This document shows positions 50,876-63,334 of a DNA stretch of 64,000 bases, in pieces (within the stretch, counting starts at the first letter, position 1; every line of letters begins with the position of its first letter). The notes under the pieces are model-generated. The model had not been told where the DNA came from, searched no databases, and saw only the letters and a list, made by a program, of their open reading frames with translations. Made by a program: the position numbers and the translations under genes. This DNA is from Streptomyces chrestomyceticus JCM 4735 (GTDB lineage: Bacteria; Actinomycetota; Actinomycetes; Streptomycetales; Streptomycetaceae): the NCBI RefSeq assembly GCF_003865135.1, contig NZ_BHZC01000001.1, positions 1,178,001 to 1,242,000 on the forward strand. Reading direction: 5' to 3'.

Positions 50876-52744
50876 TCACGGTGTCGAGGTGAGCAGCCCC
50901 CTGGCCGTCGCCGCGATCGCCTGGGCGTCGATGCCCGCCGCGCGCAACTGCTCCTCCGGGGACGCCGACCCGGGCATGGTGCGGACCGCGAGCCGGGCCA
51001 GGCGCGGTACGGGGCGGCCGTCGGTGAAGGCGTCCAGCACCGCGTCGCCGAGGCCGCCCTCGGGGTGGTGGTCCTCCACCGTGATGATCCGCCCGGTGAC
51101 GTCGGCGGCCTCCCGCAGCGTCGGCAGGTCCACCGGCTTGAGGGAGTACAGGTCGATGACGCGGGCGGGCACGCCCTCCTCGGCCAGCGTGTCGGCGGCG
51201 GCCAGCGCCTCGTGGACGGTGACCCCGGCGGCCACCAGGGTGACCCGGTCCTCAGGGGTGGCCCGCAGCGTCTTGCTGCCGCCGATCGGGAATTCCTCCC
51301 CCGGCCCGTAGATGACGGGGCTCTCGCCGCGGGACGTGCGCAGGTAGCGGATGCCGCTCGCGTCGGCCATGGCGGCGGTCAGGCGGGCCGCCTGGTTGGC
51401 GTCGCACGGGTACAGCACGGTGCTGCCGTGCACGGCACGGAACGCGGCCAGGTCCTCCAGGCCCATCTGCGAGGGGCCGTCCTCGCCGATGGCGACGCCC
51501 GCGTGCGATCCGACGAGGTTGAGGTCGGCCCGGCTGACCGCGGCCATCCGGACGAAGTCGTAGGCGCGGCTGAGGAACGCGGCGAAGGTGGTGGCGTACG
51601 GCACCCAGCCGCGCACCTGCATGCCGACCGCGGCGGCCACCATCTGCTGCTCGGCGATGTAGCACTGGAAGTACCGGTCGGGGTGGGCGTCGCCGAACAT
51701 CTGGGCGCGGGTGGAGTCGCCGACCTCGCCGTCCAGCGCCACCACGTCCTCGCGGGCCGCGCCGAGCGCGGCGAGCGCCTCGCCGAAGGCGTTGCGGGTG
51801 GCGACGGAGTCACCGACCTTGTAGTCCGGCAGTTCGGGCGTGCCGCCGCCGGTCCGCGGGCGCGGCGCGGCCTCGCGCGGCGGCTGCACCCTCACGTGCA
51901 GGTCACGGACGCCGCCCAGCTCCTCGATCGCCTCCGCGGCGTCCTTGAGCGGCTTGCCGTGCTTGCCTTCCTGGTCGGCCACCTCGCGTACGCCCTGGCC
52001 CTTGCGGGTCTTCGCGATGATCGCGGTGGGCCGGTCCGTGGTGGCGGCCGCCTCGGCGTACGCGCGGTCCACGGCGGCCACGTCGTGGCCGTCCACCTCG
52101 ATGGTGTGCCAGTCGAAGGACCGGATACGGCGGGCGTAGGCGTCCAGGTCCCAGCCGTGCCGGGTGGCGCCGCGCTGGCCGAGCCGGTTCACGTCGATGA
52201 TCGCGGTGAGGTTGGCCAGCTTCTCGTACCCGGCGTGCTCGAACGCCTCCCACATCGAGCCCTCGGCCATCTCGCTGTCGCCGCACACCACCCATACGCG
52301 GTACGGGACGCGGTCGAGGTCGCGGCCCGCCAGCGCGACACCGACACCGAAGGGCAGGCCCTGGCCGAGCGAGCCGGTGGCCACGTCCACCCACGGGATG
52401 CGCGGGGTGGGGTGCCCCTCCAGCAGGCTGCCGTTCTTGCGGAAGGTCAGCAGTTGCTCGTCGGTGAGGGCCCCGGGCGCCTTGCCCATGGCGTACACCA
52501 GGGGCGAGGCGTGTCCCTTGGAGAAGATCAGGTGGTCGTTGCCGGGGTTCTCGGGGTCGTCGAAGTCGTAGCGCAGATGGGCGTCGAGCAGGACGGCGGC
52601 CAGGTCGGCCGCGGACATCGAGGAGGTCGGGTGGCCGGAGCCGGCGGCGTCGGCGGCGCGTACGGAGTCGACGCGGAGCTGCTGTCCCAGCTCGCGCAGC
52701 CGGTCGTACCGGGCGTCGGTGTCCGGAGTGTTCTGCGTGGTCAT
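50876..52744 (-). CDS. Transketolase, short actinobacterial type
   Basis: 622 residues. The TPP motif is VCGDSEMAEGSMWEAFEHAG then DVNRLGQ, substrate residues are in GHASPLVYAMGKAPG and GSGHPTSSMS, and the second half has DGEVGDSTRAQMF and AEQQMVAAAVGMQVRGW. This shorter form resembles animal and archaeal-type transketolases, not the 660-690-residue bacterial tkt, so it may be a paralogue of the pentose phosphate enzyme. ATG 52744 overlaps the upstream flavoprotein stop as TGATG. Confidence 0.9.
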   Translation of the reverse strand: MTTQNTPDTDARYDRLRELGQQLRVDSVRAADAAGSGHPTSSMSAADLAAVLLDAHLRYDFDDPENPGNDHLIFSKGHASPLVYAMGKAPGALTDEQLLTFRKNGSLLEGHPTPRIPWVDVATGSLGQGLPFGVGVALAGRDLDRVPYRVWVVCGDSEMAEGSMWEAFEHAGYEKLANLTAIIDVNRLGQRGATRHGWDLDAYARRIRSFDWHTIEVDGHDVAAVDRAYAEAAATTDRPTAIIAKTRKGQGVREVADQEGKHGKPLKDAAEAIEELGGVRDLHVRVQPPREAAPRPRTGGGTPELPDYKVGDSVATRNAFGEALAALGAAREDVVALDGEVGDSTRAQMFGDAHPDRYFQCYIAEQQMVAAAVGMQVRGWVPYATTFAAFLSRAYDFVRMAAVSRADLNLVGSHAGVAIGEDGPSQMGLEDLAAFRAVHGSTVLYPCDANQAARLTAAMADASGIRYLRTSRGESPVIYGPGEEFPIGGSKTLRATPEDRVTLVAAGVTVHEALAAADTLAEEGVPARVIDLYSLKPVDLPTLREAADVTGRIITVEDHHPEGGLGDAVLDAFTDGRPVPRLARLAVRTMPGSASPEEQLRAAGIDAQAIAATARGLLTSTP

Positions 52745-54213
52745 CAGGTTCCTTCCGCTTTTCGGGGCCCGTCGGGCCGCTGTCCGGCCGCCTCGGGCCG
52801 GTCCTTCGGGCCGGTGTTCTCCCCCGGTCCCCCCGATCCCCCCGGTTTCCCCGTTTTGCCGGATTCACCCGGCGCTGTCGGCTCGTCCACCGGTATGCGG
52901 GCCAGCTCCGGCGCCGCCGTGTCCAGCGGCACCGACCAGGAGCGCACCAGGCCGAGCTGGACGCCCTGGCGCGGCAGGGCCGCGTCCAGCAGCCAGTCGG
53001 CGGCGACCCGGACCCGGTTGCCGGGCATCGCCATCAGGTGGTAGCCGCGGGTCACGGCGTTGGCGACGGGGCCGGACAGCGGGACGTGCAGCGGGTTGGC
53101 GGCGGCCTGCACCCCGCCGAGGTCGACCATGAAGCCCAGGTCGTGGTGTTTGTAGGCGCGCGGCTCGCCCTGCCCGTAGGAGGCGGCGACGTTGTGGGCC
53201 GCGACCTTGCCCTGGCGCTGCGCGTGCTGGGCGGTCATCGGCGTCGTCTCGCCCGGCCGGGTCAGGTCCGGTACGGCGGCGGCGTCGCCGCAGGCGAGCA
53301 CCTCGGGGTGGCCGGGTACGGCGAGGAACTCGTCCACGCACAGCCGGCCGCGTTCGGTGGGCAGCCCCAGCGACTCGACCAGCGGGTCCGGCCGGACGCC
53401 GACGCACCAGATCAGCGAGCGGGTGTCGACGGACGTGCCGTCGTCCAGGAGGACCCCCTCGGCGGTGGCCTCCTTGACGGAGGTCTTGGTACGGATCTCG
53501 ACGCCGCGTTTGCTGAGCACCCGGTGCGCGGTGCGCGACAGTCGGTGGTCCAGTTCGGGCAGCACCCGGTCGGCGAGGTCCAGCAGGATCCAGCGGGGCT
53601 GCGGCTCGCCGCGCAGCCCGGCGTTGCGGCGGGCCAGCGACCGGGTGAACGTCACGCCGTGCGCGGCGACTTCGGTCCCGGTGTAGCCCGCGCCGACCAC
53701 CACGAAGGTCGTCCGGGCAGCCCGCTCGGCCGGGTCCTCGGCGGCGCCCGCCAGCTCGATCTGGCGGGTCATGTGGTCCCGCAGGTACAGCGCCTCGGGC
53801 ATGCCGCGGAAGCCGTGCGCGTGCTCGGCGACGCCCGGGACGGGCAGCAGCTTGTTGACGCTGCCGACGGTCAGTACGAGCCGGTCGTAGCCGAGCGAGC
53901 CGGTGCGGCCCTCCGGGTCGGTGTACTCCACCCGGCGGCGGTCCAGGTCGACGCCGCCGACCTGGCCGAGCACCAGCCGGACGTCCGGGAGGGTGCCGGT
54001 CAGCGACACCGAGACCCGGCGCGGCTCCAGGATTCCGGCGGACACCTCGGGCAGCAACGGCAGATAGAGGAAGTAGTCGTTGGGGTTGATCAGCACGATC
54101 TCCGCGGCACCGCGGGCCTTCTTGGCGAGCGTGCGGGCGCATTCGTACCCGGCGAAGCCCGCCCCCACGATCACCACGCGCGGCCGCCTCCCGTTACGGG
54201 CCTCCGCCACCAT
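52744..54213 (-). CDS. NAD(P)/FAD-dependent oxidoreductase, type II NADH dehydrogenase-like
   Basis: 489 residues. FAD motif VVIVGAGFAGYECARTLAKK, NAD motif FVVVGAGYTGTEVAAHGVTF and the third FAD motif VLACGDAAAVPDLT define NDH-2-type enzymes. TAQHAQRQGKVAAHNVAA is typical. The C-terminal 40 residues are Pro/Gly/Lys-rich and probably disordered. It is translationally coupled to transketolase. Quinone reduction at the membrane face is expected but unproven. Confidence 0.88.
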   Translation of the reverse strand: MVAEARNGRRPRVVIVGAGFAGYECARTLAKKARGAAEIVLINPNDYFLYLPLLPEVSAGILEPRRVSVSLTGTLPDVRLVLGQVGGVDLDRRRVEYTDPEGRTGSLGYDRLVLTVGSVNKLLPVPGVAEHAHGFRGMPEALYLRDHMTRQIELAGAAEDPAERAARTTFVVVGAGYTGTEVAAHGVTFTRSLARRNAGLRGEPQPRWILLDLADRVLPELDHRLSRTAHRVLSKRGVEIRTKTSVKEATAEGVLLDDGTSVDTRSLIWCVGVRPDPLVESLGLPTERGRLCVDEFLAVPGHPEVLACGDAAAVPDLTRPGETTPMTAQHAQRQGKVAAHNVAASYGQGEPRAYKHHDLGFMVDLGGVQAAANPLHVPLSGPVANAVTRGYHLMAMPGNRVRVAADWLLDAALPRQGVQLGLVRSWSVPLDTAAPELARIPVDEPTAPGESGKTGKPGGSGGPGENTGPKDRPEAAGQRPDGPRKAEGT

Positions 54214-54367: not shown

Positions 54368-55354
54368 TCAGTCCGGCAGCGCGAGCAGCACCCGCCCCGG
54401 CGTCCCCGGGCGTTCGACGGCTTCGTGCGCGGCGGCGATCTCGTCGAGAGGGTGCACGGCCGCGACCGGGTAGCGCAGCGCGGACGCGGCGGCCGCCGCG
54501 GTGATGTCGGGCAGGGCCAGCCGTACCGCTTCCCGGGGGAAGTCGTCGTACCCGAGCAGCCGGACGGTCGCGTTCTTGAAGGCCAGCGGCCAGAAGGGCA
54601 GCGCGGGGGCGGGCTCGTGGGTGGCGTAGGCGGCGAGGGTGCCGCCCGGGGCGAGCAGGCGCGCGTCGAGGGCGGCGTTGGCGTCGAAGGCGACCTCGAC
54701 GACCCGGTCGGCGCCGCGTCCCCCGGTCAGCGCCAGCACCGCGTCCACCACGTCGTCCCCGGCGCACACGGCGCGGTCCACGCCCAGCTCCCGTAGCGCG
54801 GCGACCTGGCCGGGGCGGCCGACCGTGCCGATGACCTGCGCGCCCGCCCGCCGCGCCAGGACGGCCGCCGCGCGGCCGACGCTGCCCAGGGCACCCGCCA
54901 CCACCACTGTCCGCCCGGCCACCGGGCCGTCCACGAACACCGCTCGGTGCGCGGTGATGCCGGGAATGCCCAGGCAGGCGCCCTGTTCGGCGGAGACGGT
55001 GTCGGGCAGGGCGCCGACGCAGCCCTCGGGGACGACCGTGTACTGGGCGGCGGTCCCGTACGGGCGGTAGCTCTGGGCGTACGAGCACCAGGCGCGGCGG
55101 CCGATCCAGGCGGCCGACACCCCGTCGCCGACCGCGTCCACCACCCCCGCCCCGTCGCTGTGCGGCACGGTGCGCGGGAAGGCGGGCGCGGCGGACCCCA
55201 GCCACACCTGCCGTTTCTTCACGTCCCCGGGATTGATCCCGGAGAACGCCAGCCGGATGCGCAGTTCCCCGGGTCCCGGCTCGGGTGTGGGCAGCTCTCC
55301 CACCTGGAACACCTTTCGGGCCGGGCCCCTGTTCTCGTACCAAGCGGCGCGCAT
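54368..55354 (-). CDS. NADPH:quinone oxidoreductase-type MDR enzyme (second copy in window)
   Basis: 328 residues of the zinc-free MDR family: FSGINPGDVKKRQVWLG, ACLGIPGITAHRAVFVDG, nucleotide motif VAGALGSVGRAAAVLARRAGA, and a closing HPLDEIAAAHEAVERPGTPG. It diverges from the sugar-oxidation operon across 92 bases, which may contain a shared control region. Confidence 0.9.
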   Translation of the reverse strand: MRAAWYENRGPARKVFQVGELPTPEPGPGELRIRLAFSGINPGDVKKRQVWLGSAAPAFPRTVPHSDGAGVVDAVGDGVSAAWIGRRAWCSYAQSYRPYGTAAQYTVVPEGCVGALPDTVSAEQGACLGIPGITAHRAVFVDGPVAGRTVVVAGALGSVGRAAAVLARRAGAQVIGTVGRPGQVAALRELGVDRAVCAGDDVVDAVLALTGGRGADRVVEVAFDANAALDARLLAPGGTLAAYATHEPAPALPFWPLAFKNATVRLLGYDDFPREAVRLALPDITAAAAASALRYPVAAVHPLDEIAAAHEAVERPGTPGRVLLALPD

Positions 55355-55446: not shown

Positions 55447-56517
55447 GTGAAGATCGAGGTCATCGAGAAGGACGATCAGTACATTCTCAATCACTGCACC
55501 AAATACCTCGCCAGGGAAAGCCGGGACGCGCGCCATGATTTCGGCCAGTACGCGCCGGGCGACGAGCGTGCGGCGATCTGTGAGGCATGGCGTTTCCCGG
55601 TGGTCGACGCGCACTGGGACGGGGTGTCGGCGGCCGGTTCGTACCCGTACAACGACGTGACGTTCGTCTACGACGGCCGCCGCACCGCCCCTGCCTCGGT
55701 GGCCGTACTGGGCACCTTCGGGCCGCTGCACTCGCCGGTGCCGCTGCGTCCGCTGGTGTTCGCGGGCGAGCCGACCGGCTTCTCCGCGACCACCGTGCGC
55801 GTCCCGAAGGGGCAGGTCCACACGTACAAGTTCGCGGTGGACGGGGTGTACACGCTCGACCCGGTCAACCCGCAGCGCACCGTCCTGGACAACGGCGAGC
55901 CGTGGTCCCGCTTCTTCACCGACGCCTGCACCGTGCCGCTGTCGCTCAGCCGCACCGAGCGCGACCTGCTGGGCCGGCTGGTGTGCCACCTGCTGCCCTT
56001 CCGGCTCGACGAGAACCGGCGGCTGATCCGCGGGGTGTACGAGTCGCTGGACCGCGCGCGCCGGGACGAGGAATTCCCGCTGGCCTATCTCCTGGACGAC
56101 GAGGTGGGCACGGTCAACTACATCGACAAATTGATCGCCCGCCAGGAACAGCACCATGCCGATGATTACCACATCTGCCTCAAAATCATCGGGGAAATCA
56201 TCCGGTCCCGTTTCGGCGGACTCGATCCGGCGGCCGCGCCCGCGGATCTGTACGCGGATCTCTACCGGCAGATGGAAACCGAAAAGGTGGACGGCTGGGA
56301 CTACTCCCGTTACGGAAGTCCGCGGTTCTTCCTGCTGCTCCTGCGGCGGCATGCGATGACCGGTGCCTTCGTGCACCCGAAACACGGCGGGAATTCCGGT
56401 GCGGCGGGCTGGATGTATCTGGAGAGCCGCTTCCGGGACGCGCGGGACGGCACGCTCTTCGACTGGCGGCGGGCGCTGGAGTCGCCGCTGGGCCACAACA
56501 CCGACTACCGCGGCTGA
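55447..56517 (+). CDS. CBM48-like plus gluconate 2-dehydrogenase subunit 3-like protein
   Basis: 356 residues from GTG 55447 with GGAGG eight bases upstream. After an N-terminal region of about 60 residues, 65-160 look like a glycogen-binding/CBM48 or AMPK-beta-type beta-sandwich (DVTFVYDGRRTAPASVAVLG, VHTYKFAVDGVYTLDPVNPQ). Residues about 165-330 resemble gluconate-2-dehydrogenase subunit 3 (LLGRLVCHLLPF, FPLAYLLDDEVGTVNYIDKL, HHADDYHICLKIIGEIIRSR, FFLLLLRRHAMTGAFVHPKH). Subunit 3 normally pairs with the GMC subunit, which follows by 10 bases. No Tat signal is seen, unlike periplasmic relatives. Linking a glucan-binding module to this subunit is unusual. Confidence 0.7.
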   Translation: MKIEVIEKDDQYILNHCTKYLARESRDARHDFGQYAPGDERAAICEAWRFPVVDAHWDGVSAAGSYPYNDVTFVYDGRRTAPASVAVLGTFGPLHSPVPLRPLVFAGEPTGFSATTVRVPKGQVHTYKFAVDGVYTLDPVNPQRTVLDNGEPWSRFFTDACTVPLSLSRTERDLLGRLVCHLLPFRLDENRRLIRGVYESLDRARRDEEFPLAYLLDDEVGTVNYIDKLIARQEQHHADDYHICLKIIGEIIRSRFGGLDPAAAPADLYADLYRQMETEKVDGWDYSRYGSPRFFLLLLRRHAMTGAFVHPKHGGNSGAAGWMYLESRFRDARDGTLFDWRRALESPLGHNTDYRG

Positions 56518-56527
56518 GGAGGACGGC

Positions 56528-58335
56528 ATGGACGGGGAGAGCGCCGGAGTCGTCGTCATCGGCAGCGGCGCGGGCGGCGCACCGCTCACCCATACGCTCG
56601 TACGGGCCGGCCACCGGGTGGTCGTCCTGGAGAAGGGGCCGCTGCTGCGCACCCAGGCGCAGAGCCCCACCGGCCTGTCGGACTTCAAGCGCGACGAGTG
56701 CTTCGCCACCGGGTCGGAGAAGCGCATCACCGTGCCGGGCGTGGCCAACACCGGCGAGTCGTTCTACTCCAGCCACGTGGAACCGGACCTGAACGACGAG
56801 CCGCACGTCTACCGCGACAGCGACGGCCGGGACCGGGTCACCATCGAGGGATACACCGCCCAAGTGGTGGGCGGCGGGACCCAGTTGTACGGCGGTGTCT
56901 CCCCCGCTTCACCCCCGAGGACCTGCGGCTGGCCACCCTCAACGCGCCGCGCGGCGACCTGCGCGACGACCCGGGCGGCGACGTGCGCCGGGAGGCCCGT
57001 GACTGGCCGTTGGACTACGCCGCGCTGGAGCCGTACTACACCAAGGCCGAGGAGCTGGTCGGCATCAACGGGACCTGGGACGGCCAGGCCAAGGCCCCGT
57101 CCCAGGACCGCTACCAGCCGCCTCTGGAGCCCAACCCGATCAGCGCGTACGCGGCCGCCGGCATGGACGCGCTCGGCATGCGCCGCTACCGCACCCCGCT
57201 CGCGGTCATCACCCGCGACCACGCGCCCAGCGGCCGTACCGCGCCCGCCGACGCCGACACCGTCAAGACGGCGTTCGTCAACCGCTACGGCGACCCGCTG
57301 GGCCTGAAGTCCAACGCCTGGGTGTCGCTGCTGGCGCCGCTGCGCGAGGTGGACGGCGGCGGCGCCCTGGACCTGCGGGCCAACTGCACCGTCACCCATC
57401 TGGAGGCGGACGGCCCGCGCGTGACGAAGGTGCACTACCGCGACCCCGGCGGCCGCCCGCGCACGCTCACCGCCGGCACCGTCGTCGTGGCCTGCTCGGC
57501 CATCGAGTCCGTACGGCTGCTCCAGCTCTCCGGGCTGCTCGACCCGGCCTTCGACAAGCGCGTCAACGCCAACGGCCTGCTGGGACGCTACTTCCTGACG
57601 CACTGCTTCGGCGGCGCGCAGTGCGTCGTGCCGGACCGCTCGGACAAGTCCAAGACGCTGGACTCGGACTGGGCCACCGACCACTGCGCGCGCCCCGAGT
57701 GGTTCCGCGCCCAGGGCCTGTGGGCGGGCGGCGTGATCTACAACAACACCTCCGACGGCGCCCTGCCCATCTCCCTGGCCCGCACCTGGCACGCGATGGA
57801 CATGGACAACATGTGGAAGGGCTACCTCTACGACACGGGCATCGTCGGCGACGGCTTCGAGGACTACCTGGAGGAGAGCTTCGGGCGGCGCCTGTCGGTG
57901 GCGTTCATGGCCAACCAGGTGCCGCAGCGGGAGAACCGCATCGAGCTGCACCCGAGCGTCAAGGACAAGTGGGGCCGCCCGGTCGCGTACATCATCAAGA
58001 CCTGGCACCCGCACGACCGGGCGCTGATGGACGCGCTCGCCGAGCAGTGCCGGCAGATCCTGGTGCGCGGCGGTGACGTGCGCGACGTCAGCTCGGGTTC
58101 GGTGGGCGGTTCGGTGGTACGGATCGCCAACCACGTACTGGGCGGCGCCCGGTTCGGCGCGGACGCCGCGGACTCCGTCCTCGACCCCGACTGCCGGGCC
58201 TGGAACTTCGACAACCTCTACGTCACCGACGGGGCGTTCATGCCGACCTCGGGCAGCGCCAACCCGACGCTGACCATCGAGGCGAACTCCTTCCGCGTCG
58301 GCGACGTGCTGCTCGACAGGGTCGGGAGGACGTGA
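56528..58335 (+). pseudogene. GMC oxidoreductase (gluconate 2-dehydrogenase large-subunit-like), frameshifted
   Basis: The N-terminal FAD motif VVIGSGAGGAPLTHTLVRAG and VLEKGPLL are in one frame from ATG 56528. From about 56905 the protein continues in another (RFTPEDLRLATLN through SGSVGGSVVRIANHVLGGA and the C-terminal FMPTSGSANPTLTIEANSF). The C-terminal His-Asn pair typical of GMC active sites is intact. Adding one C to the C5 run (56894-56898) gives YGGVSPRFTPEDLRLATL and a normal 602-residue enzyme. Catalysis would be FAD-dependent oxidation of a sugar alcohol or hemiacetal carbon. No signal peptide. Sequencing error is a serious possibility. Confidence 0.85.
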
Positions 58336-58336
58336 C

Positions 58337-59467
58337 ATGGACAGCCGCTTCGACGATGTCTTCACCCACCCCGAGAACGAGATCTTCCGCGTCGTCTTCT
58401 ACCCGGACCGGATCTACCACGCCCGCTACCTCAACGCGACCCGCTCCTCCCGCTACCGCTACTACGTCGCCGAGGTGCGCGGCTCGGCGGACGGCACCGC
58501 CATCAAGGGCGACGTCTTCCTCGGCGGCACCAAGCTGTGCCCGATGCTGCGCATCGAGTACTCCGGCATCCGGCTCGTGGAGCAGGCCAGGGAGTTCAAC
58601 CGGCGCCTGGGACCCCGTACGAAGGCGTGGCTGAAGGTCACCGGCGAGGACCCGGCGGACTCCGCCGAAGCCATCGTCACGCTGCACTGGGACCCGGTGA
58701 TCGGCGCGTACGCGGCGGAGATCTGGGAGACGCTGGAGCCGCCGGACGGCACCGCGCACGACCACCGGGTGCTGCCGCTGATGGGCCGTAACGCGCCCAT
58801 CACCCGCGTACCGCAACTGTCCCCGCTGCTCGGCTCGGTCTCCGAGGTGGCGATGGCCTTCCGTGAGGACGGCGTGCTGTACCCGACGGGCCAGCGGCTG
58901 GGCAACCCGCAGTGGGACAACGCCTACCTCCGCTCCCACCAGGAACCGCGTACGCAGGAGCCCAGCGACCCCCGCAACACCGTCGCCGACAGCAACTACC
59001 TCCTCGACTTCCAGCGCGGCTTCTTCATCCCGGACGCCTCCCAGATCACGCCGGTCAACTACCGCAACGCCATGACCGACGAGGGCAATCCGGAGCGCCG
59101 GGACGACAACATCGTGCAGATGCGCTGGCTGTTCCAGCGCGAACTCGGCAGCGACCTGGTGTTCTTCCACGAGGTGACGGTGCCGCCGGGCGCGGTGGAG
59201 GGCACCCACCGGCACATCGGCTCGGAGGAGCTGTACTACGTCGTCTCCGGCACCGGCACCGCGTACATGAGCGACGGCGACGACCCGACGACCGCCGCCT
59301 ACCCGCTGGTCGAGCGGCCGGTCTTCGGCGTCGGACCGGTCAAGTGCCGTGAACTGCCGGTCAAACCGGGCAGCGTGCTCTACACCAAGAGCGGCGGCGT
59401 GCACGGCATCCGCAACCCGGGCACCGAGCCGCTGAAGTTCGTCGCGTTCCTCTACCACACCACCTGA
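58337..59467 (+). CDS. Cupin-domain protein with unassigned N-terminal region
   Basis: 376 residues. The C-terminal cupin shows His291-x-His293 and Glu297/298 in GTHRHIGSEELYYVVSGTGT, and His356 in SGGVHGIRNPG, a full metal-binding set. The first 260 residues are strand-rich and match no family I recognise (FRVVFYPDRIYHARYLNATR, TLHWDPVIGAYAAEIWETLE). It starts one base after the GMC stop, so coupling is likely. A metal-dependent sugar isomerase, lactone-opening or oxygenase role are all possible. Confidence 0.65.
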   Translation: MDSRFDDVFTHPENEIFRVVFYPDRIYHARYLNATRSSRYRYYVAEVRGSADGTAIKGDVFLGGTKLCPMLRIEYSGIRLVEQAREFNRRLGPRTKAWLKVTGEDPADSAEAIVTLHWDPVIGAYAAEIWETLEPPDGTAHDHRVLPLMGRNAPITRVPQLSPLLGSVSEVAMAFREDGVLYPTGQRLGNPQWDNAYLRSHQEPRTQEPSDPRNTVADSNYLLDFQRGFFIPDASQITPVNYRNAMTDEGNPERRDDNIVQMRWLFQRELGSDLVFFHEVTVPPGAVEGTHRHIGSEELYYVVSGTGTAYMSDGDDPTTAAYPLVERPVFGVGPVKCRELPVKPGSVLYTKSGGVHGIRNPGTEPLKFVAFLYHTT

Positions 59468-59479
59468 GGCGGTCCCGCG

Positions 59480-60733
59480 ATGCCCAAGATCGTGCACACC
59501 GACTCGGTCTTCCGCGTCGACCCGGTCAAGCCCCCGGACTACGCGGAGGCCAACCCGCTGCTGAAACTGCTGGGCCTGGTCGAGCGCACCCGGTTCGCCG
59601 CCGAACGCGAACTGTACGAGCCGGACTCGCTCCAGCACCTGTTCCCGCTGCGCACGCTCCAGCTCTACGGGCCCGCCTCCCCCGACCAGGACCAGCTCGA
59701 CCCGGCGCAGCAGGACGACAAGACCGACTTCCAGAAACAGAACGTCCGCGACTTCACCCTCGCCGACACCCGGGCGGTACGTGGCTGGGCCGAGATCGGT
59801 GACTGGCGCGGCCCGTTCCTCCAACTGTCCTACCGGGGCGGCCCGGACTCCGCGCTGTGGCGCGAGGCCGGCCAGCTCGGCGACACCATCGGCTGCGTCC
59901 TCTCCGTCCAGGGCAGCCGCCCGCTGCCGGTGCGGGTGCCGTATGACGAGGAGACCGACTTCTACACCGTCGAGCTGTGGGGCCGGGTCGGCGACGGCCT
60001 CCGCGACCTCCTCGGCCCGCGCGGCCGGACGGCACTCGACTCCGGCCTGCTCCAGCCCCGCCCCGACCTCGTCACCGGCCTGGGCCAGGACTTCCTCCGC
60101 GACCAGATGACCAACCAGGACCTGCGGCTGGTCGCCCCGCGGCACGCCATGCACCCCGTCCTCCCCTGCTACCTCGACGTGCGCTGGACCGCGAGCCCCG
60201 ACGGCGCGGGCCCGGCCGACCCGCCCTCCGGCTCGGTACGCCTCGGCTTCGAGATGAAGGTCCGCGGCTGGGACAACTACCTCGGCGTCGGCACCAGCCC
60301 CAACCCGCACGGGGGCGTCGGCTTCCTCGAATACCGCACGCTGTTCAGCGAGTACGGCCGCTGGGCGGGCACCGACGACCTGCGGCGCGCCCTGGAGCCG
60401 TACAACCTCGACGCGTACGGCAACAAGGGGCACGCGAGCGGCGACGTCGAACCCTTCCTCGCCGTCACCTACATGGACCTGCACGTCCTCGACCCGGCCT
60501 GCGGCATCGGTCTGCACCGGCACCGCGACAACCAGGAGGTCTTCCTGATGCTGGAGGGCGACGGGCTGATGGTGATCGGCGACTGGGCCGACTCCGGCAG
60601 CCGGGTGCGCTCCTTCGAGGTGCGCCGGCTGCCCGCCGGACACCTCGCCCTCCTCAAGGGCGGCAACCTGCACGGGCTGATGAACCCCGCCGACCAGCGG
60701 GCGTCCCTCTTCATGTTCGGCGGTTACGACTGA
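59480..60733 (+). CDS. Large cupin-domain protein, unrecognised family
   Basis: 417 residues. The C-terminal cupin has His346-x-His348 and Glu353 in GIGLHRHRDNQEVFLMLEGD, and His398 in KGGNLHGLMNP. Residues 1-325 are unfamiliar and include a highly charged segment (DQLDPAQQDDKTDFQKQNVR). It is only partly similar in layout to the preceding cupin protein: both have a long unknown N-part and one C-terminal metal site. The stop overlaps glgX as TGATG, so it is translationally coupled to a debranching enzyme. Confidence 0.6.
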   Translation: MPKIVHTDSVFRVDPVKPPDYAEANPLLKLLGLVERTRFAAERELYEPDSLQHLFPLRTLQLYGPASPDQDQLDPAQQDDKTDFQKQNVRDFTLADTRAVRGWAEIGDWRGPFLQLSYRGGPDSALWREAGQLGDTIGCVLSVQGSRPLPVRVPYDEETDFYTVELWGRVGDGLRDLLGPRGRTALDSGLLQPRPDLVTGLGQDFLRDQMTNQDLRLVAPRHAMHPVLPCYLDVRWTASPDGAGPADPPSGSVRLGFEMKVRGWDNYLGVGTSPNPHGGVGFLEYRTLFSEYGRWAGTDDLRRALEPYNLDAYGNKGHASGDVEPFLAVTYMDLHVLDPACGIGLHRHRDNQEVFLMLEGDGLMVIGDWADSGSRVRSFEVRRLPAGHLALLKGGNLHGLMNPADQRASLFMFGGYD

Positions 60734-62754
60734 TGACGGTCCCCCCGGCCTCCCCCGCCCCCGGCGACCCGTACCGGCTCGGCGCCCACTGGGACGGCTC
60801 CGGCACCTCCTTCGCCGTGTACTCCTCGGCCGGCGCGTACGGCGGCTCCGTCGAACTGTGCCTGCTCGGCGAAGGCGGCGAGCGGCGGCTCCCGATGGCG
60901 GTGGACTGCGACATCTGGCACACGTACGTCCCGGGCGCGGGACCCGGCCAGGGCTACGGGTACCGCGCGCACGGCCCGTTCGCGCCCGCACGCGGCCTGC
61001 GCTTCGACCCGTCGAGGCTGCTGCTCGACCCGTACGCGCGCATCCTGAAGCCGACCGGGGAGCGCACGCTGCTCCCGCTGCTCGCCGACCCGGCGTTCGA
61101 CTGGGGCGACGACCGGGCGCCACGCCACCCGTGGTCCCGGACGATCCTGTACGAGACGCACGTCAAGGGCCTGACCGCGCGGCACCCCGAGGTGCCCGCG
61201 CCCCTCCGCGGCACGTACGCCGGGCTGGCGCACCCCGCCGTCATCGGGCACCTGAACCGCCTCGGCGTGACGGCCGTCGAACTGATGCCGGTGCACCAGT
61301 TCCTCCCCGAGACGTTCCTCCTCGACCGCGGCCTGACCAACTACTGGGGCTACTCCACCATCGGCTTCTTCGCGCCGCACGCCGCCTACAGCTCGACCGG
61401 CCACGAGGGCGGCCAGATCACCGAGTTCAAGGCGATGGTCAAAGCGCTGCACGCGGCCGGGATCGAAGTGATTCTCGACGTCGTCTACAACCACACCGCC
61501 GAAGGCCCGCCCGACGACCCCACCCTGAGCTTCCGCGGCCTGGCCAACGAGATCTACTACCGCCTGGACCCGGCCGACCCGGCCCGCTACGTGGACACCA
61601 CCGGCACCCGCAACACGCTGAACGCGGGCCGCCCCGAAGTACTGCGCCTGATCATGGACTCGTTGCGGTACTGGATCACCGAGATGCACGTGGACGGCTT
61701 CCGCTTCGACCTGGCCGCGACCCTGGCCCGCCAGTACGGCTACGTCGACCGGCTGGCCGCCTTCTTCGGCCTGCTCCACCAGGACCCGGTCGTCGGCCGC
61801 GCCAAACTCGTCGCCGAACCCTGGGACGTCGGCGCGCCCGACAGCTACCAGGTGGGCCGCTTCCCGCCCGGCTGGAACGAGTGGAACGACCGCTACCGCG
61901 ACACCGTGCGCGACTTCTGGCGGGGCCGCCCGGCCGTCGGCGGCCTGGCGAGCCGGATCGCCGGCTCCGCCGACCTGTACGCCCCCGAACGGCGCGGCCC
62001 CGACGCCTCCGTCAACTTCCTCACCTGCCACGACGGCATGACCCTGACCGACCTGGTCACCTATGCGCAGAAGCACAACGAGGCCAACGGCGAGCACAAC
62101 CGCGACGGCACGGACGACAACCGCTCCGCCAACTACGGCGTGGAGGGCCCGACGCGCGACCCCGCCATCGTCTCCGTCCGCGAACGCCAGCGCCGCAACC
62201 TGCTCGCCACCCTGCTCCTCTCCCAGGGCTGCACGATGCTCCACGGCGGCGACGAACTCGGCCGTACGCAAGGCGGCAACAACAACGCGTACTGCCAGGA
62301 CAACCCCACGAGCTGGTACGACTGGTCGGCACCCACCCCCCTCACCGACTTCGTGCGGCGGGCCGTCGCCCTGCAACGCGACCACCCGGTACTCCGACGC
62401 ACCGCCTTCCTCACAGGTTCCGGCAACCCTCCGGACATCGCCTGGTACGACCGCGAGGGCCGCCCGATGACCCCGGCCCGCTGGGACGACCCGGCCACCC
62501 GCTTCCTGGCCTTCCTCCTCGCCGGAGACCGCGCGGCAGCACCCGACACCGACCTCCTCGCCCTCCTCAACTCCGGTGCGGACGCGGTGGACTTCCCGGT
62601 CCCGGGGCGGCCCGGCGCGGTGTACGAAGTGGTCCTGGACACCACGGCACCGGACGGCGCTCCGGCGGCCTCGGCCACCCTGAAGACAGGCGACGTGTGC
62701 ACCGTCCCGGCCCGCACGGTGTGGGTGGCGACGGCCGGGCTGCCGGGCAGTTGA
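60733..62754 (+). CDS. glgX: Glycogen debranching enzyme, GlgX-type (GH13)
   Basis: 673 residues. An N-terminal CBM48 (GTSFAVYSSAGAYGGSVELC, RAHGPF) precedes the GH13 barrel: DVVYNHT (249-255), nucleophile Asp326 in VDGFRFDLA, Glu362 in LVAEPWDVG, and CHDG at 432-435. It hydrolyses alpha-1,6 branches of phosphorylase-limited glycogen. ATG 60733 overlaps the cupin stop. Typical GlgX neighbours (glgP, treZ, malQ) are absent, so this may be a specialised paralogue serving the oxidation operon. Confidence 0.93.
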   Translation: MTVPPASPAPGDPYRLGAHWDGSGTSFAVYSSAGAYGGSVELCLLGEGGERRLPMAVDCDIWHTYVPGAGPGQGYGYRAHGPFAPARGLRFDPSRLLLDPYARILKPTGERTLLPLLADPAFDWGDDRAPRHPWSRTILYETHVKGLTARHPEVPAPLRGTYAGLAHPAVIGHLNRLGVTAVELMPVHQFLPETFLLDRGLTNYWGYSTIGFFAPHAAYSSTGHEGGQITEFKAMVKALHAAGIEVILDVVYNHTAEGPPDDPTLSFRGLANEIYYRLDPADPARYVDTTGTRNTLNAGRPEVLRLIMDSLRYWITEMHVDGFRFDLAATLARQYGYVDRLAAFFGLLHQDPVVGRAKLVAEPWDVGAPDSYQVGRFPPGWNEWNDRYRDTVRDFWRGRPAVGGLASRIAGSADLYAPERRGPDASVNFLTCHDGMTLTDLVTYAQKHNEANGEHNRDGTDDNRSANYGVEGPTRDPAIVSVRERQRRNLLATLLLSQGCTMLHGGDELGRTQGGNNNAYCQDNPTSWYDWSAPTPLTDFVRRAVALQRDHPVLRRTAFLTGSGNPPDIAWYDREGRPMTPARWDDPATRFLAFLLAGDRAAAPDTDLLALLNSGADAVDFPVPGRPGAVYEVVLDTTAPDGAPAASATLKTGDVCTVPARTVWVATAGLPGS

Positions 62755-62815
62755 CGACGCCCGTAAAGTGCCCGGGACAGCACCCACGCGCACCGCCAGG
62801 TCAGGGAGAACCGGA

Positions 62816-63334
62816 ATGCCGATACGCACCACCAGACCGCTCCAGGCCCTACCGCTCGCCGCGACCGTGCTCACCGGCACGGTCGCGCTCTACATGGCGC
62901 TGGTCGCGTTCGGCAACATCACCGACTTCGGCACCAACCAGGCGTTCGTCCAGCACGTCCTGGCCATGGACACCACCTTCAAGGACCCGGACCTGATGTG
63001 GCGAGCCGTCGAGTCCCGCACGCTCCAGAACATCGCGTACGTCCTGATCATCATCTGGGAGACGGCCGCCGCACTGGTCCTCGTCGCGGCGACCGTCCTG
63101 TGGGCACGCGAACTGCGCCGGGGCTCGGGGTACGCCGGGGCGCGCCGTGTCGCCACCGCCGGACTGCTGATGGTGCTGCTGCTGTTCGGCGCGGGCTTCA
63201 TCGCGATCGGCGGCGAGTGGTTCTCCATGTGGCAGTCCAAGACCTGGAACGGCCTGGAGGCGGCCACGCGCAACTTCGTGGTGGCGGGAGTGGCGTTGGT
63301 GGTCGTGCATCTGCGGGCGGCCGACGAGCGGTGA
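62816..63334 (+). CDS. DUF2165-like membrane protein
   Basis: 172 residues from ATG 62816, with GGGAGAA upstream. Four membrane segments are visible (LPLAATVLTGTVALYMALVA, IAYVLIIIWETAAALVLVAA, ATAGLLMVLLLFGAGFIAIG and FVVAGVALVVVHL). FGNITDFGTNQAFVQHVLAM and GGEWFSMWQSKTWNGLE are hallmarks of DUF2165. Function unknown. It lies 61 bases past glgX, with a terminator after it. Confidence 0.85.
   Translation: MPIRTTRPLQALPLAATVLTGTVALYMALVAFGNITDFGTNQAFVQHVLAMDTTFKDPDLMWRAVESRTLQNIAYVLIIIWETAAALVLVAATVLWARELRRGSGYAGARRVATAGLLMVLLLFGAGFIAIGGEWFSMWQSKTWNGLEAATRNFVVAGVALVVVHLRAADER

Follow-up and report, generated by a model that had tools for sequence, protein, structure and literature searches.

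Why should a flavoprotein and a putative small subunit of the sugar dehydrogenase kind be encoded in a single operon with two cupins and a glycogen debranching enzyme of the GlgX type? The question is raised by positions 55447 to 62754 of a 64,000-nucleotide stretch of DNA (the window), which covers positions 1,178,001–1,242,000 of the 9.38-Mb one-contig genome of Streptomyces chrestomyceticus JCM 4735. Our answer, to which we give a probability of about 0.5, is that this operon specifies a self-contained cytosolic module that oxidises the glucose units of an α-glucan, either glycogen or maltodextrin. The five plus-strand genes are separated by gaps of 10, 1 and 12 bases and finally by a one-base TGATG overlap, just as a first reading made from the letters and translations alone (the sequence-only reading) had described them. 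In window coordinates they are:

55447–56517, plus strand: open reading frame 1 (ORF1), 356 amino acids, a CBM48/AMPK-beta-like domain (about residues 47–162) fused to a Gluconate_2-dh3 domain (gamma or "hitchhiker" subunit), assigned from Pfam, AlphaFold2 and hydropathy
56528–58335, plus strand: GMC flavoprotein, split in the assembly by a one-base frameshift near 56,900
58337–59467, plus strand: cupin A, 376 amino acids, with a C-terminal cupin and an N-terminal region that has no convincing Pfam match
59480–60733, plus strand: cupin B, 417 amino acids, a distant homologue of cupin A with a C-terminal cupin at residues 328–417
60733–62754, plus strand: GlgX-type CBM48-GH13 debranching enzyme, 673 amino acids, on its own branch among the GlgX sequences compared

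Conservation and distribution of the operon

A collection holding one genome per species (84,980 species) was searched with ORF1 and yielded 14 distinct contigs, from Streptomyces, Kocuria, Saccharothrix, a Streptosporangiaceae, a Solirubrobacteraceae and Novosphingobium. In all 14, down to 44% identity, genes for the GMC protein, cupin A and cupin B lie behind ORF1 in the same order and on the same strand, and because this four-gene arrangement is kept at every locus found by ORF1 alone, the grouping is more than chance. When genomes G036 and G862 are added, and with them plasmid pMVF16-5 of Microvirga sp. VF16, the count rises to 17 loci, or 18 with the window; genomes G018, G072 and G361 were not counted separately, since their coordinates match those of loci L006, L005 and L009. 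The sequence-only reading had made its proposal depend on the order being conserved beyond this strain, and it is kept far beyond it, in Actinomycetota and Alphaproteobacteria. That Streptomyces and a plasmid of an alphaproteobacterium share the five-gene order points to a module able to function independently and to pass from one phylum to another.

The operon is nevertheless rare and widely scattered. With the window's genome included each time, ORF1 matches were found in 5 of 392 genomes of the genus, 1 of 394 in a sample of the class and 2 of 296 in a sample of the phylum, and cupin A matched only the source genome among 199 genomes of the Novosphingobium family. Plasmid pMVF16-5 (locus L023) is the only match among 72,556 plasmid records, and tblastn found no ORF1 relative in viral contigs. 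A large protein set, in which 8000 candidates were scored per query and the best 120 listed, holds 486 relatives of ORF1, 865 of cupin B and 1205 of cupin A at E ≤ 0.001. We note that a tyrosine-recombinase-like gene (match below cut-off) lies about 0.6 kb upstream of the operon on pMVF16-5. Neither the operon nor a fusion of CBM48 to a flavoenzyme small subunit was found described in the literature searched, which has most subscription journals outside it.

The putative small subunit ORF1

The two domains that the sequence-only reading saw in ORF1 stand on somewhat different footings. The Gluconate_2-dh3 domain scores above its Pfam cut-off in the window protein (24.7 bits against 23.4) and is matched by 15 of 16 family members at E ≤ 0.01; this domain (PF13618) occurs once in the window's genome. 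AMPK1_CBM stays below its cut-off in the window protein (20.5 bits against 26.8), and here too 15 of 16 family members match at E ≤ 0.01, the best at 2.6e-6. The AlphaFold2 model (predicted local distance difference test score, pLDDT, 79.8) gives CBM48-like structural matches of the AMPK-beta/SEX4 type for the N-terminal domain, so this domain does model as CBM48, a point on which the earlier proposal could have failed. At the positions equivalent to the sugar-binding residues of AMPK, most of 66 sequences have aromatic or basic residues at three of the four. The fold is that of the AMPK-beta/SEX4 CBM48 domains, from which ORF1 differs in that the domain is fused to the small subunit of a flavoenzyme. 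ORF1 has no RR in its first 40 residues and no hydrophobic stretch, and so lacks a twin-arginine (Tat) signal.

The GMC flavoprotein and the cellular location

The sequence-only reading was right to call the second gene a flavoprotein, and it missed that the gene is not one intact frame: the N-terminal part lies in one frame and the remainder in another. DNA comparison with seven relatives places a one-base loss near 56,900, and the copies at the other 17 loci stay in a single frame across the equivalent point. The operon region is 95% identical in DNA to that of Streptomyces monomycini across 10.4 kb, and on our reading of the list of insertions and deletions this is the sole uncompensated frameshift inside the operon relative to that species. 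This may be an error of assembly or a genuine defect of the gene in this strain, and whether the system functions there depends on which of the two is true.

In profile searches the nearest solved structures are the flavin adenine dinucleotide (FAD) glucose dehydrogenase of Burkholderia cepacia (6a2u, E 3.8e-40) and fructose dehydrogenase, followed by pyranose oxidases. The catalytic pair His536 and Asn579 is kept in 11 of 11 aligned proteins, none of which has a cysteine at residues 223–269 that could serve as a 3Fe-4S ligand. A leucine occupies the family-alignment column that we take to correspond to the covalent-FAD histidine. Excerpts of the account of the B. cepacia enzyme name Cys212, Cys218 and Cys222 as its 3Fe-4S ligands, assign its gamma subunit to the Tat system, and give maltose among its substrates (PMC6719666).

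Hydropathy scans of the five window proteins (the GMC protein as two pieces) found no N-terminal twin-arginine motif and no membrane-like stretch, and there is no multi-haem cytochrome among the five operon genes, the search being confined to these. The sequence-only reading had likewise seen neither export signal nor cytochrome, and its cytosolic placement holds on sequence grounds, to which the absence of 3Fe-4S cysteines in the GMC protein is now added; the module is apparently cytosolic. Compared with the direct-electron-transfer (DET) type FAD sugar dehydrogenases (B. cepacia 6a2u and 8hdd; fructose dehydrogenase 7w2j), the operon has the same GMC catalytic subunit with its His/Asn pair and the same Gluconate_2-dh3 small subunit, but it is without Tat signal, 3Fe-4S cysteines and multi-haem cytochrome gene, its small subunit is fused to CBM48, two cupins follow, and a GH13 gene is present in 12 of 18 loci. 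The bacterial pyranose oxidases and glycoside 3-oxidases (AA3_4; 8qve, 9fl2, 7qf8), the next-nearest solved relatives, are alike in GMC fold and in oxidising sugars, but the GMC proteins of the operon reach only 43–47 bits with the pyranose oxidase model TIGR02462, far below its cut-off of 544.9. To our knowledge the AA3_4 enzymes work without a Gluconate_2-dh3 partner. A word search of a comparative paper on these enzymes (PMC10807413) returned none of cupin, gluconate and glycogen.

GlgX and a possible α-glucan link

The last gene had been called a CBM48-GH13 debranching enzyme, and its product indeed exceeds the TIGR02100 cut-off for GlgX (844.6 bits against 640.9), as known GlgX proteins do; what we take to be the GH13 motifs also appear in its translation. 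A GH13 gene is the fifth gene in 12 of the 18 loci. It is of the GlgX type in ten (the window, L004–L007, L009–L011, L021 and L022; identified by tblastn, with NCBIfam used for the window, L010 and L011), and in Novosphingobium and Microvirga it is another CBM48-GH13, whose best models are GlgB and TreZ, below their cut-offs. The window's genome has two further GlgX genes. A maximum-likelihood tree was built from 32 rows, ten of them operon GlgX and 22 GlgX-like paralogs of ten genomes; it has two long branches among the paralogs. One of its branches (88/85; present in 86% of 200 bootstrap trees) sets the ten operon sequences apart, and the nine that remain when that of G862 is excluded group at 100/100. 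The GlgX of the Kocuria and Solirubrobacteraceae operons are nearer to those of the Streptomyces operons than to the paralogs that their own hosts carry. Operon GlgX thus differs from the other copies compared in standing on a separate branch and within an oxidoreductase operon, and since this branch is shared across hosts, the gene apparently moves along with the rest of the cluster. The separate branch, together with the different GH13 in the same slot of the two Alphaproteobacteria, strengthens the α-glucan link. A Streptomyces GlgX has been reported to bind cyclic di-GMP (PMC9530166).

The surroundings of some of these loci may be recorded here. The Solirubrobacteraceae operon GlgX (L010 6983–8931) is broken in its contig, with two frames and a stop, and a second GlgX piece (L055) lies near the contig end. 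Upstream of the Kocuria operon (L011 183–6796) are genes for a sugar ABC transporter, a LacI regulator, DUF2961 and GH32. Other genes stand downstream of the core in the scanned loci that lack GlgX (L008, L012, L015, L016). In one Saccharothrix (L016 15974–19404) they are a GH15 glucoamylase-like gene, about 0.8 kb from the core, and a second GMC oxidoreductase. NACHT and KAP P-loop NTPase genes lie directly downstream of the core at L015 15170–20422 and L008 15280–18024, and at L013 and L014 the corresponding place is taken up by an open frame of similar size. These NTPase families are often found in defence islands.

The two cupins

Cupin A is above the Cupin_2 cut-off (49.5 bits against 27.2); cupin B, at 18.4 bits, is below it, and all 72 relatives of it that were scanned match the model at E ≤ 1. 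Both have in the cupin barrel a predicted site of three histidines and one glutamate (H291, H293, E297/E298 and H356 in cupin A; H346, H348, E353 and H398 in cupin B), and the conserved columns agree with the complete metal sites that had been claimed for them. Solved-structure profile searches found only small cupins for cupin A, such as 1o4t, and for cupin B nothing at E ≤ 0.1 with 11 sequences and one match at E 0.53 with 72. The cupin B model (pLDDT 90.1) is matched mostly in the barrel and little before about residue 94. Its matches are tied across many cupins, with BacB and AerE among the top, and so indicate no chemistry; aldos-2-ulose dehydratase is not among the best 50.

Neighbouring genes

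Divergent to the operon lies a gene of which the sequence-only reading gave no account:

54368–55354, minus strand: quinone-oxidoreductase-like MDR protein, 328 amino acids, a probable accessory part in some lineages

Its closest solved structures are quinone oxidoreductases, with 2-haloacrylate reductase lower in the list. Of 13 other loci tested, six (four Streptomyces, Kocuria and G862) have a homologue of at least 50% identity next to the core; in G862 it points the same way as the core, and in Kocuria and G862 this copy is the best match in the whole genome. None is beside the core in the other seven, which include S. cinnamoneus, S. varsoviensis, Novosphingobium and Microvirga; one Saccharothrix has a copy of 57% identity on another contig. 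The gene is therefore a probable sixth, accessory part in some lineages.

Also beside the operon, on the minus strand at 50876–54213, are a transketolase-like gene (identified by eye) and a type II NADH dehydrogenase-like gene. The latter adjoins the core in S. varsoviensis as well (L007, 80% identical) and is possibly more than local synteny. On the other side, the DUF2165 gene (62768–63334) also follows the operon in L004, L005, L007 and L009 and is 1.5 kb away in L022. It was considered as a sixth part and rejected: of 61 relatives (E ≤ 1e-40) it is present in 19, and ORF1 in 3. None of 13 DUF2165 loci has the window's other flank genes within 1.5 kb, so no empty site or insertion boundary was found by this route.

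Proposed mechanism and alternatives

The scheme that follows is inferred as to the assembly of a complex, its binding to glucan, the substrate and the position at which it is oxidised, the electron acceptor and the reactions of the cupins. GlgX would trim the branches of the glucan. ORF1 would be the small partner of the GMC protein, its Gluconate_2-dh3 half holding and stabilising the flavoprotein as gamma does in FAD glucose dehydrogenase, and its CBM48 module, in place of a Tat signal, would bring the enzyme to the α-glucan and not out of the cell. The GMC subunit would oxidise a sugar hydroxyl; as the five genes include no cytochrome and iron-sulphur ligands are absent, the electrons would probably pass to oxygen or a quinone-like acceptor. 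Isomerisation, dehydration or hydrolysis of the oxidised sugar may follow, carried out by the two related metal cupins, and in some lineages the quinone-oxidoreductase-like enzyme might handle the acceptor or an enone product. The sequence-only reading had likewise proposed cytosolic debranching and oxidation, and of this the gene order, the CBM48 model and, on sequence grounds, the location have held up; the α-glucan link is strengthened by the operon GlgX and weakened by the six loci lacking GH13.

Those six loci (five Saccharothrix and the Streptosporangiaceae), where no GlgX match lies in the fetched stretch, weigh against our reading together with two properties of ORF1: its N-terminal fold is also common, by structural matches, to non-glucan proteins, and its AMPK1_CBM match is weak in the window protein. 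The same facts favour the chief alternative, in which the four core genes oxidise something other than a glucan (another glycoside, a cyclitol or a polyol), the CBM48-like domain is structural or binds protein, and GlgX adds little. We consider this doubtful, given that GH13 of two different types fills the same slot at 12 of 18 loci, that the operon GlgX has its own branch, and that a GH15 gene is so near the core in one Saccharothrix.

It is rather less likely that the operon serves to form a small secondary product (an enone derived from a keto-sugar, or a similar compound) comparable to fungal cortalcerone, with the GMC protein forming a dicarbonyl sugar from released glucose, the cupins dehydrating or isomerising it and the quinone-oxidoreductase-like protein reducing the enone. 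The rare and patchy distribution would suit such a pathway, as would the fungal two-enzyme precedent (cited in excerpts of PMC11650716), the rank of pyranose oxidases as next GMC relatives after the FAD glucose and fructose dehydrogenases, and the biosynthetic cupins BacB and AerE among the top cupin B fold matches. The resemblance of the MDR protein to quinone oxidoreductase, and further down to 2-haloacrylate reductase, fits it too; but the cupin matches, being tied, do not discriminate, the pyranose oxidase scores are very low, and among 20 neighbour proteins scanned, some of them GH13, there is no recurring biosynthetic partner. That the operon encodes a degenerate respiratory enzyme of the same type as FAD glucose dehydrogenase or gluconate dehydrogenase, exported piggy-back and served by a distant cytochrome, we regard as very improbable. 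The gamma-subunit domain and its GMC partner are indeed those of that family, but the five proteins carry no Tat motif or hydrophobic signal, all 11 GMC proteins lack the cluster cysteines, no cytochrome is among the five genes searched, and ORF1 is fused to a domain typical of glucan enzymes.

Significance

Bacterial glycogen is known to be used by phosphorolysis, by hydrolysis, or by conversion to trehalose or maltose 1-phosphate. The operon may represent a means, so far undescribed, of drawing on stored starch-like sugar. If α-glucan oxidation is its function, stored carbon would have a new fate, namely oxidation inside the cell by a route that has a debranching enzyme to itself, and new sugar oxidases would come with it. 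In its fullest form the proposal, which we hold tentatively and as somewhat less probable than the general reading, is of a horizontally moving cytosolic α-glucan oxidation system in Actinomycetota and Alphaproteobacteria, in which a new type of flavin enzyme (dehydrogenase or oxidase) targeted by CBM48, its gamma subunit turned from export escort to glucan anchor and its iron-sulphur relay lost, would make keto- or aldonic ends that paired metal cupins convert further beside a dedicated debranching enzyme. The Gluconate_2-dh3 subunit would then have a job beyond escorting its partner from the cell, and this role is directly testable.
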